Origin: Gammaproteobacteria bacterium
GTDB lineage: Bacteria; Pseudomonadota; Gammaproteobacteria; UBA9214
DNA length: 33,728 bases
Assembly (NCBI GenBank): GCA_003230545.1
Contig: QIFB01000220.1
Location: 1 to 33,728, forward strand
Direction: 5' to 3'
The position numbers were made by a program, and so were the translations under genes. Positions 6,308 through 13,817 of this stretch are shown here, one piece after another (positions within the stretch are counted from its first letter, which is position 1; each line of letters starts with the position of its first letter). Under the pieces are notes generated by a model, which was not told the DNA's origin, ran no database searches, and was given only the letters and a program-made list of their open reading frames with translations.

Positions 6308-9152
6308 ATGTTGAGTGAGCTTAAGAGGATTCGTACACGGTTCACTGCGCTCATCGTCACCGGGCTGCTGCTCGCCCCACTGGCCGGTCTGGCCAGCGCC
6401 CTGCTGTTCGGGCTGATTAGCCCCGCAGATCTGCACAGTCACCGCATCCCGGTTATCCTGGGCGCCTTCGTGGCAGCCTCTGTCTTCTGGGCAGTATTCT
6501 ATTTTTCTAGTTATTTCAATCCGTTAAGTGACTGGGCCGGGTACAGCCCGGACACACCACTACCGGCCCACCAGCAGCACCGGCTGGCTCGTTTCAGCCG
6601 GGATTACTGGAGCTTTTTCCTGCTCTATGCACTGGTCATACCGGCGTTGCTGTTCGTTGCCATCGGCAAATCCATCGGTGGCGCTGCTGCAGCTCTCCGT
6701 CGCCACCCTGGTGGGCCTGCCCAGCTATCAGCTGGCGCTGGACCAGATCGGGAAGCTGGCCGGCCACCTGAGCCTGCACAAAATCCAGGTCAGCCTGAAA
6801 TCGAAAATCATGCTGCTCGGCGGCTTCGTACCGCTGCTGTCCTACTCGGTACTGATGAACTACCACTGGCAGCAGACCGGCAACCTGTCACCCGGTCACA
6901 TGGCCATCTGGCTGACGCTGGTGGTAATCACCGGCATGGTCACACTGTTCTCGATCCGCAGCATTACCCAGGCACTGGCGCCGGTGCAGGAACTGTTCCT
7001 GCGCAGTGGCGCCTCGAGCACAGCCGAGCTGGCGCAACTCAGCCCGCAGTCAACCGATGAAATCGGTTTTATGACACAGGCACTCGGCAAGCTGTTCCGA
7101 CGTCTCGGTGAACAGGAAACGCACATGCGCGCCGTGGTCGAGAATGCCGCCGAGGGCATCATCGTAGTGGATGAACAGGGGCGTGTGGAAACCTTCAACC
7201 CGGCAGCTGAAAAACTGTTCGGTTACCTCGCCGCGGAAATCTGCCAGCGGCCACTGAAGTGGCTGTTGCCCGACCTGGTCGGTGACGACAACCGGCTGCA
7301 CCCGGTAAACGATGAATATGAGGTAGAGGGCTTTCACCGCAATGGCGTAGCCATGCAACTGTCAGTGCGCATCAGTGCAATGGTCATTAACGGCCAGCAC
7401 CTGCACACTTGCCTGGTCGCCGACATCACGCGGCGAAAGGCCACTGAAGACCAGTTGCGCGAGGCCGAGAGCCGCTACCGCGATCTTGTCGAAACCGCGC
7501 ATGACCTGGTATGGACCATGGATGAACAGGGCCGGTTTACCTACGTCAACCGCGCCTGCCAGACCATATACGGCTTCGAGCCGGCAGAAATGCTGACCCG
7601 TCAGCTGCAGGAATTCCGCTCACCCGACCACCCCCCGGTTGACCAGCAGGCCATCGAGGAACTGCTGGCCGGCAAGGAACGTGTCAAGTTTGAAACCGTG
7701 CATCTCGATGCCGAAAGCAAACCGCACTTCCTGAGCTTCAGCGCCAAGACCCACACGGATGAAACCGGCAAGCTGGTCCATATCAGCGGCACGGCGCGTG
7801 ACATCACCGAGCAAAAGGCCTTCCAGCACCAGCTCTCCTATCATGCCGAACATGACTCGCTCACCGGCCTGTTCAACCGCAATTATTTTCAGCAGGAACT
7901 GGAACGCACCGTGGCGCGCGTCGCGCGCAGCGGTTCGGGTTGTGCACTATTTTATATCGATCTCGACCAGTTCAAGTACATCAACGACACCCTTGGCCAT
8001 GCCACCGGTGACCGCCTGCTGGTCGATATCGCCGCACTGCTGGCGTCGCATGTGCGTGAGGGCGACCTGCTGGCACGCTTTGGCGGCGATGAATTCACGC
8101 TGCTGCTGTACAACATCGAACGTCACGATGTACTGAGTACAGCGGAGAAGTTCCGCACCCTGTGCGATGACTACAAGTTTGTCGAGGAGGACGCCAGCTA
8201 CAACATCTCGCTCAGTATCGGCATCGCGATGATCGACAGCCAGGTCACCTCCGCGGAAGAAGTGCTGTCACATGCCGACCTCGCCTGCCACCTTGCCAAG
8301 CAGCATGGCCGCAATCGCACCAACCTGTATGACCCGTCGGAGAGCGACAAGGCCGGCATGGCGGCCGACATGGGCTGGGCGGCACGCGTGCGGGAAATGC
8401 TCGAGCACGACCGTTTTCAGCTGGTCTACCAGCCGATCGTATCAATCGCAGACGGCCATGTGCTGGACTACGAAGTGCTGGTGCGGATGATCTGTGACGA
8501 CGGCCAGGTGATCCTGCCCGGTGGCTTCATGCCGGCCGCGGAACGCTTCGGGCTGATTCACAGCGTCGATCGCTGGATCGTCCAGCGGGCTATCCGCCAG
8601 CTCAGCAGCCTGCATGTACAGGGGCAACAGGTCAGCTTCTCCATTAACCTGTCCGGCAAGGCCTTTGAGGACCCGACGCTGCTCCCGATGATCCAGGAGT
8701 TACTGAGCGAGACCGGGCTGGACCCCACCTGGGTCACGTTTGAGATCACGGAAACCGCCGCCATCGCCAACCTGGCCGCTGCCGATGGTTTCATCGGCGC
8801 ACTGAAAGACATTGGCTGCCAGTTCGCCCTCGATGATTTTGGTTCCGGGTTCTCGTCATTCGCCTACCTCAAGCACCTGCCGATCGACAAGCTCAAGATC
8901 GACGGTGGCTTCGTCAAGGGCATGGCCCACAGCAGCGTCGACCAGGCCATGGTGGAATCGATGAACCAGATTGCACATGCACTCGACAAGCTGACCATCG
9001 CGGAATGCGTGGAAAACGAGGAAACCCTGCAGTTACTGAAAGGCATGGGCGTCGATCGTGCCCAGGGCAATTACATTGGCCAGCCGCGCGAGGCACTGCT
9101 AAGCCTCGCCCAGAACAGCATCCCGGCCGAGGCCAACGCACAGTCACTCTGA
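6308..9152 (+). CDS. Membrane PAS-PAS-GGDEF-EAL cyclic-di-GMP signalling protein, disrupted by a +1 frameshift near 6668
   Basis: The N-terminal membrane region reads in one frame from the ATG at 6308. An in-frame TTG at 6281 has AGAGG upstream and is an alternative. The reading then continues, with membrane segments intact, in the next frame from about 6670 to the stop at 9152. The span has one surplus base; removing one A from AAA at 6668-6670 gives a 947-aa protein. Domains by position: about five or six membrane helices (6330-6970), a HAMP-like linker, PAS (about 7110-7430), PAS (about 7470-7820), GGDEF (about 7840-8335) and EAL (about 8385-9110). GGDEF is intact (8082-8096), with an RxxD inhibitory site five residues before it. 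The EAL motif reads EVL (8472-8480), but FEITET, DDFGSG, KLKIDGGF and AECVEN are kept. Both synthesis and hydrolysis of c-di-GMP are therefore possible if the frame is restored. Confidence 0.85.
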
Positions 9153-12572: not shown

Positions 12573-12995
12573 ATGACAGAAAATGCGCTCATACTGGTTG
12601 CCGGTGCGGCTATCGTGGCAATCCTCGGCCTGGCCTTCCCCTGGTCGGGGCGCAACAAACAGCGTCTTACGAATAAAAAATCCGGTGCCCTGGAAAAGCT
12701 GCGCCATGCAGGCATCTACCGGGGTGTGACCATCCGGCCCGGCAAGTGCGCAGTTGCCAGGCGCTTCAGAGGCAAGTTGTTCAGCTTTGACCAGGCACCG
12801 CCACTCCCGCTGGCTGGTTGCAACACACTGCACTGTGCCTGCAACTACCGCGGCCTGCCGGAACACCGCAAACAGGCGCGGCGTAATGCCCTTGACCGCA
12901 GGGACTCGTTACGTTTTGACGCCGAACGCCCGGAGCGCCGTGTCGGCAAGGAAAACCGCCAGGGCAACATCAACTGGCGGGATCCCGGCGACTGA
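12573..12995 (+). CDS. Uncharacterised membrane-anchored protein with four conserved cysteines (paralogue 1)
   Basis: 140 aa with GGAG about ten bases before the ATG. One membrane helix spans about residues 5-23, then a basic soluble part. Cys59, Cys83, Cys88 and Cys90 form a C-x23-C-x4-C-x-C pattern (RPGKC, LAGCNTLHCAC), with His87 and His98 nearby. A highly charged tail rich in Arg follows (RRNALDRRDSLRFD). The next gene is a clear paralogue with the same cysteine spacing, so the pair is a tandem duplication. Metal binding or disulfide formation is plausible, but no function is recognised. With a single N-terminal helix and a positive stretch after it (GRNKQR), the Cys domain probably faces the cytoplasm. 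Confidence 0.75.
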   Translation: MTENALILVAGAAIVAILGLAFPWSGRNKQRLTNKKSGALEKLRHAGIYRGVTIRPGKCAVARRFRGKLFSFDQAPPLPLAGCNTLHCACNYRGLPEHRKQARRNALDRRDSLRFDAERPERRVGKENRQGNINWRDPGD

Positions 12996-13002
12996 ACCCT
13001 GA

Positions 13003-13025
13003 CGGCCGGGGTGCCATCCCGGCCG
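13003..13025. terminator. GC-rich hairpin after paralogue 1
   Basis: The stem is CGGCCGGG (13003-13010) with CCCGGCCG (13018-13025), around a 7-base loop, starting eight bases after the paralogue 1 stop. No T-run follows, so an intrinsic terminator is doubtful. It could instead attenuate read-through into paralogue 2 or stabilise the mRNA. Confidence 0.35.
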
Positions 13026-13085
13026 GCTTCGAAAATACCGGGCAGCTCTGGTATTCTTTACCATCGCTGATCACACGGCATCCCC

Positions 13086-13550
13086 ATGGTAAAGACCCTT
13101 GTCCTGCTGGCCATACTTGCAATTCTTGTGGGTATCTTCTGGCTGTTGCGTGGCAAAGGCGTGCAACGTCTGGGGCAGCTGAGACACCAGCACCAGCAGC
13201 CGGACGAGGAAGATGAACTCATCGGGCTGTCCAGCAAGGAAAAAGCACTGGAGAAACTGCACAACAGCAGGAAATTCTGGGGTGTTGAGATCCTGCAAGG
13301 CGGTTGCAAGGCCTCAACTGCACTGGCGGGTAAACGCTTTGCATTCGAGGAAGCCCCCGCCCTGCCACTGGAGGGCTGCACGGCACATAACTGCCCGTGC
13401 CAGTACAAGGGCCTGAAAGAGCATCGCGGGGGTCACCGCCGCGCCCAGGAAGACCGTCGTGAAGGTTTACGGTTTGATGTAAAAAAACCGGACCGCCGTG
13501 CACTGAAAGACCGGCGTAGCCGGTTTGACCAGTGGAAAGGAAGGGCCTAG
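13086..13550 (+). CDS. Uncharacterised membrane-anchored protein with four conserved cysteines (paralogue 2)
   Basis: 154 aa. One membrane helix spans about residues 4-21, followed by RGKGVQR and an acidic stretch (PDEEDE), then the conserved domain. Cys74, Cys98, Cys103 and Cys105 repeat exactly the C-x23-C-x4-C-x-C spacing of the upstream gene. The two also share LEKL, GV-I, GK-F-F, AP-LPL-GC, Y-GL-EHR and DRR-LRFD. The tail is strongly basic. The similarity is in the soluble domain; the linker differs. No function is recognised. The stop lies three bases from the end of a convergent small gene, leaving no room for a terminator between them. Confidence 0.78.
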   Translation: MVKTLVLLAILAILVGIFWLLRGKGVQRLGQLRHQHQQPDEEDELIGLSSKEKALEKLHNSRKFWGVEILQGGCKASTALAGKRFAFEEAPALPLEGCTAHNCPCQYKGLKEHRGGHRRAQEDRREGLRFDVKKPDRRALKDRRSRFDQWKGRA

Positions 13551-13553
13551 CCG

Positions 13554-13817
13554 TCAGGCGACTTCCGCCAGCAGCTTCTTGTACCTGGGTGAGTTCAAGT
13601 TGGCCGACTTCGGCTTGGAACCACCGAGATAGGCCTCCAGCGTGACCGTCGGGATTTTGGACATGTCAACCAGCGGGTGCATGATGCACTTCTCGCAGGC
13701 GATCAGTTTAGGTGGCGCACCGGCGGGTGCCTTGCCGACCGGACGTTCACGCAGGTTCTTGCAGGTTGCCACACTCAGGTAGGCTTGCTGGGGAATGCAG
13801 TGAAACATAGAATCCAT
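13554..13817 (-). CDS. Small Cys-containing protein of unknown function
   Basis: 87 aa with AGAGGAAG upstream of the ATG at 13815-13817, a convincing ribosome-binding site. Four cysteines (7, 19, 41, 44) include a CEKC pair, followed by MHPLVDMSKIPTVTLEAYLGG and a basic C-terminus. There is no signal peptide or membrane helix. A small metal-binding protein is possible, but I do not recognise the family. It converges with paralogue 2 at a three-base gap, and hemH follows downstream on the same strand after 145 bases. Confidence 0.7.
   Translation of the reverse strand: MDSMFHCIPQQAYLSVATCKNLRERPVGKAPAGAPPKLIACEKCIMHPLVDMSKIPTVTLEAYLGGSKPKSANLNSPRYKKLLAEVA

Follow-up and report, generated by a model that had tools for sequence, protein, structure and literature searches.

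Tandem membrane-anchored Cys4 proteins of Gammaproteobacteria with a probable remote likeness to the C-terminal CxC knuckle of phage MuF proteins

What are two adjacent genes that each encode a short membrane-anchored protein with four identically spaced cysteines, and what might these cysteines hold? The question is raised by the window, the whole 33,728-nucleotide stretch of gammaproteobacterial DNA analysed here, in which genes A and B follow each other on the + strand with a gap of 90 bases (Table 1). BLASTP aligns their products over 103 ungapped residues with 44% identity (E=1e-28), as expected of real paralogues, and the cysteines at positions 59/83/88/90 of A and 74/98/103/105 of B share the spacing 23-4-1 (C-x23-C-x4-C-x-C). 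Each protein features a single hydrophobic segment at its N-terminus (KD19 maximum 2.5-2.6), which AlphaFold models as a helix and which is followed by positive charges. The tandem paralogy, common cysteine spacing and one-helix anchors put forward in the first-pass annotation are thus all borne out. A third copy is absent from the window's genome, where the one extra match (E=0.35) is interrupted by stops and can be put down to chance.

Table 1. Positions of genes A and B and of their predicted parts in the window
Feature	Position	Strand	Basis
Gene A, membrane-anchored Cys4 protein, 140 aa	12573..12995	+	ORF; paralogue of B
Gene A membrane helix, residues 2-21, predicted	12576..12635	+	KD19 maximum 2.54; AlphaFold helix
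Cys4 (MuF-C-like) domain of A	12696..12884	+	Profile A6, E=1.4e-22 (A itself in profile)
Gene A Cys codons	12747, 12819, 12834, 12840	+	
Gene A Arg-rich DRR tail	12843..12992	+	pI 11.1; 14 K/R, 9 D/E in 50 residues
Gene B, membrane-anchored Cys4 protein, 154 aa	13086..13550	+	ORF; copy retained by most relatives
Gene B membrane helix, residues 2-22, predicted	13089..13151	+	KD19 maximum 2.6; AlphaFold helix
Cys4 (MuF-C-like) domain of B	13254..13442	+	Profile A6, E=5.5e-25 (B itself in profile); pLDDT about 80-89; Foldseek to MuF proteins
Gene B Cys codons	13305, 13377, 13392, 13398	+	
Gene B Arg-rich DRR tail	13401..13547	+	pI 11.4; 18 K/R, 8 D/E in 49 residues

The family is without a name in curated libraries. 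Pfam, NCBIfam and PHROGs scans of A and B gave nothing above noise, and the MuF HMMs PF04233 and TIGR01641, whose cut-offs are not reached, match neither protein at E up to 10; the PADLOC anti-phage defence models returned no match at E up to 1, and no PDB entry was matched by sequence. L053, which belongs to the family but comes from a different genome, does give weak matches to TIGR01641 (E=0.004) and PF04233 (E=0.011), and PF04233-related matches cover only the last part of that profile, from about 50/70 to 110 of 112. The earlier statement that no family with this arrangement is known consequently stands as far as Pfam, NCBIfam and PHROGs are concerned, and gives way in that a distant kinship of the Cys4 domain with the MuF CxC knuckle is probable, as detailed below.

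The distribution across Gammaproteobacteria, which had been proposed as a check, proved patchy. Within the window's own bacterial family the proteins are present in 20 of the 23 genomes searched (own genome counted), with the tandem pair in six genomes (G000, G002, G004, G015, G019 and G021), an additional copy elsewhere in G004, and usually one gene otherwise; relatives of A occur in five other genomes of this family. Those relatives that carry a name are either uncultured Ectothiorhodospiraceae or metagenome-assembled genomes labelled Gammaproteobacteria, isolate UBA9214 among them. Profiled alone, the Cys4 domain is detected in 23 of 370 gammaproteobacterial genomes from many families (E <=9e-14, some of these sequences being in the profile), and a phylum-wide sample adds one more genome, G655. 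Outside the Gammaproteobacteria, the two stronger matches that were read (L280 and L281) are MuF-type proteins of a different architecture. A contig scan with a single protein query found no match, and a search of viral contigs with the family alignment retrieved no relative.

Over the extent of their contigs, the fetched relatives keep the order uvrD - [A] - B - small orphan - [hemH] - glmS - glmU - atp, which argues for vertical inheritance over a recent mobile element. The genes thus sit among the uvrD ... glmS-glmU-atp housekeeping genes, with no phage portal or terminase gene in their context. No neighbour gene recurs among 20 distant loci, in one of which (L094) glmS-glmU-atp is still nearby. 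Upstream of uvrD, the window also carries a GGDEF-EAL gene (6528-9152, +), which occupies the same place in the family relatives at 72-90% identity.

The first-pass annotation had tied its case to the survival of the cysteines in close homologues, and all four are retained in 27 of 27 sequences of an alignment that includes other bacterial families, together with P91, P94 and several arginines. The histidine of the EHR block, claimed at the same time as conserved, does not hold: its position is taken by R, K, Q, V or G in relatives. Measured against L061, the nearest relative with both genes and our reference for dN/dS, the values are about 0.54 for A and about 0.22 for B, with the neighbours uvrD, hemH, glmS and the small orphan at 0.09-0.14, and identity to the relative is 51-62% for the pair versus 80-90% for the neighbours. 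By these measures both proteins look constrained, A only loosely. The argument that duplication implies two functional copies is therefore weak, because most relatives carry B only and A is under the weaker constraint, even if each copy bears marks of constraint. A tree built from both sets of copies gave no clear answer as to whether A forms a single clade.

Structure prediction, another check proposed at the outset, gave models whose Foldseek matches are dominated by MuF proteins. The AlphaFold models of B and A concur: a helix and a strand come first, then a short helix where the first cysteine lies, an APxLPL loop, the CxC and a final strand, with a domain pLDDT of about 80-89 and 73-84, respectively, and with poorly predicted tails and linkers. 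Against viral structure models, the matches of both queries were mainly to minor capsid, MuF-like and head morphogenesis proteins of phages, the best of them with probability 1.00 and an rmsd of 2.1 Å over 68 columns, all matches being to predicted models with E above 0.001; against the PDB, Foldseek matched no structure. The likeness to MuF proteins (PF04233, TIGR01641; SPP1 gp7-type) follows the pattern C-x(5-8)-G-x-x-[FY]-x4-[AV]P-x2-P-..-[H or C]-..-C-x-C, the predicted order of helix, strand, loop and strand being the same too, and the C-terminal MuF motif (G-x-x-F, P-x2-P, ligand, C-x-C) is found with Cys98 in place of the histidine. The window proteins differ from MuF in that they appear to comprise its C-terminal part only, have a cysteine for the histidine, add a membrane helix and an arginine-rich tail, and lack an adjoining portal gene; the B model has one helix ahead of the strand, which bears on the N-terminal helical half of MuF. 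As the HMM cut-offs are missed and phage context is lacking, we do not file A and B as MuF proteins.

Profile comparison points in the same direction. Aligned by hhalign with MuF domains from viral contigs, the Cys4 family reaches a probability of 70% and a score of 29.0, rising to 88% and 34.5 once the bridge proteins described below are added, where the best of 100 column-shuffled controls with the bridged profile scores 20.3; the MuF values are single comparisons, and MuF was picked on earlier hints. With Mu-type MuF from proteobacterial genomes the hhalign score is near the shuffled null. HMM cross-scores are weak singly, yet shifted above those of shuffles, with p-values that are inflated by related sequences.

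Two proteins with a SAP domain connect the families. The first, encoded on a Marinobacter shengliensis plasmid, was found by tblastn of the domain with a weak initial match (E=0.8) and ends in CEACKSIDGKKF...VPELPLAEC...CRC. Its domain matches PF04233 (E=0.009) and, used as a query, retrieves B (2e-4), A (1.2e-3) and further members of the Cys4 family, the best of them at 3.3e-6. The second, L280, has a clear SAP domain (1.3e-9) and is matched by TIGR01641 (1.3e-6) and PF04233 (1.4e-4), each below the curated cut-off, while a Cys4 HMM built without the bridges scores 26.9 bits on the same C-terminal residues. Column by column, the bridges (Marinobacter plasmid P0003 and L280) share CxxC..DGK.F..[VA]P.[LI]P...C....CRC with the Cys4 domain: the first cysteine of CxxC corresponds to Cys74, the final CxC to Cys103/105, and there is a direct match of G-K-x-[FY] and of [AV]P-x-[LI]P. 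They differ from the window proteins in their length of 326-347 aa, their SAP domain, the extra cysteine of CxxC and the lack of a DRR tail.

Taken with the predicted fold, these alignments make remote homology likely between the Cys4 domain and the CxC knuckle at the C-terminus of the MuF minor-capsid proteins of phages (PF04233/TIGR01641). The strongest competitor, which we regard as unlikely though deserving of serious thought, holds that A and B are zinc-stabilised membrane docking modules that converged on a small CxC knuckle without common descent. The shortness of the domain speaks for such convergence, as do the near-null score against Mu-type MuF, the weakness of individual HMM cross-scores and the Foldseek E-values. 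It is countered by a likeness that reaches past the cysteines, into G-K-x-F and [AV]P-x-[LI]P, by bridges that are matched independently from both sides, and by an hhalign score that exceeds all 100 shuffles. What is probably new here, in place of a wholly unknown arrangement, is a variant that is anchored in the membrane and akin to the C-terminal knuckle of MuF, by which an unnamed family of gammaproteobacterial chromosomes gains a fold hypothesis, predicted metal ligands (Cys74, 98, 103 and 105) and a modular description. If homology is true, a phage-head module persists in the cell as a protein tethered to the membrane, and the C-terminal knuckle of MuF, itself poorly understood, acquires small relatives more amenable to study. 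No further function of the MuF domain is known (PMC5576092), and the word 'cysteine' is not mentioned in that source.

For the proteins as a whole we favour, with a probability of roughly 0.45, a bitopic inner-membrane protein in which an N-terminal helix would tether an otherwise cytoplasmic chain, composed of a cell-resident relative of the MuF C-terminal CxC knuckle followed by the arginine-rich DRR tail. The four cysteines would most likely hold a single structural Zn2+ and so fold a small docking module, which together with the polybasic tail would bind something anionic at the membrane, for which nucleic acid and proteins attached to it are the most likely candidates.

A metal site in the Cys4 domain is likely, and zinc would be the predicted metal. 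Many MuF domains carry a histidine (P-H-P-x-C-x-C) at the position where Cys98 would stand in this family, and this apparent replacement of histidine by cysteine favours zinc. The alternative of an iron-sulfur cluster held by the cysteines, or of a redox pair formed by them, would make A and B membrane redox proteins and draws on the invariance of the cysteines and on the predicted exposure of the domain to the reducing cytoplasm; we think it improbable, considering the histidine of MuF at one ligand position and the lack of recurring redox neighbour genes. Moreover, a CxC with two distant cysteines is not known as a usual ferredoxin spacing. In the phage MuF domains themselves (L158-L237), a near-invariant P-x-K-P-H-P-x-C-x-C with an upstream cysteine looks like a metal site.

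The predicted cytoplasmic C-terminus rests on the positive charges that follow the helix, in keeping with the positive-inside rule. A single N-terminal helix may also serve as an export signal anchor, and with an orientation that is itself a prediction the soluble part could instead be periplasmic, its cysteines paired in two disulfides; with the charges lying after the helix and not before it, we give this arrangement slightly less credit still than the redox one.

The arginine-rich tail is a separate module by sequence. It is also found free-standing in other genomes, as proteins of about 60-90 aa with the pattern GPERR..RR..DRRxxxRFE..DRRxxxDRR...W, which fits the tails of A and B; these stand-alone proteins of Gammaproteobacteria (L055-L060) differ in having no Cys4 domain, and the one that was scanned has no Pfam or NCBIfam match. 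Five of them (L055, L056, L057, L058 and L060) are small DRR proteins of an orphan family. On the side of the membrane-tethered docking module, the tail pI above 11 and the SAP domain of the bridges point to an anionic partner, and our leading guess for this putative partner is nucleic acid or else a protein attached to nucleic acid. The SAP-containing CxxC...CRC proteins (L131 649-1629; L280, a 359-aa frame) may possibly represent an undescribed nucleic-acid-binding family in their own right; the Marinobacter gene (L131 649-1629) lies on a conjugative plasmid with an HNH endonuclease gene near it.

Alternatively, the tail could be a PilZ-like c-di-GMP element and the proteins second-messenger sensors, given that DRRxxxRF presumably resembles the start of a PilZ domain, and that GGDEF-EAL genes lie beyond uvrD in the window's family and are matched in 3 of 20 distant loci. 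We set this link aside as very improbable: PilZ was not matched in Pfam scans of the window proteins and of one stand-alone DRR protein, GGDEF genes are widespread, and a single genus accounts for two of the three distant loci. Least probable of all is that a phage-head MuF module, domesticated and duplicated at the inner membrane face, blocks or senses infection in a superinfection-exclusion-like manner by meeting incoming phage DNA or ejected capsid proteins, since vertical inheritance at one locus speaks against such a role and the faster divergence relative to the neighbours, which would fit an arms race, fits relaxed constraint too.

Finally, B is adjoined in all fetched relatives by the small orphan of the conserved gene order, which in the window is an 87-aa protein (13554-13817, -) without a Pfam match. 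It contains four cysteines, including a CEKC, and is 82-90% identical across the family; 2 of 55 further gammaproteobacterial genomes encode relatives of 54-62% identity.
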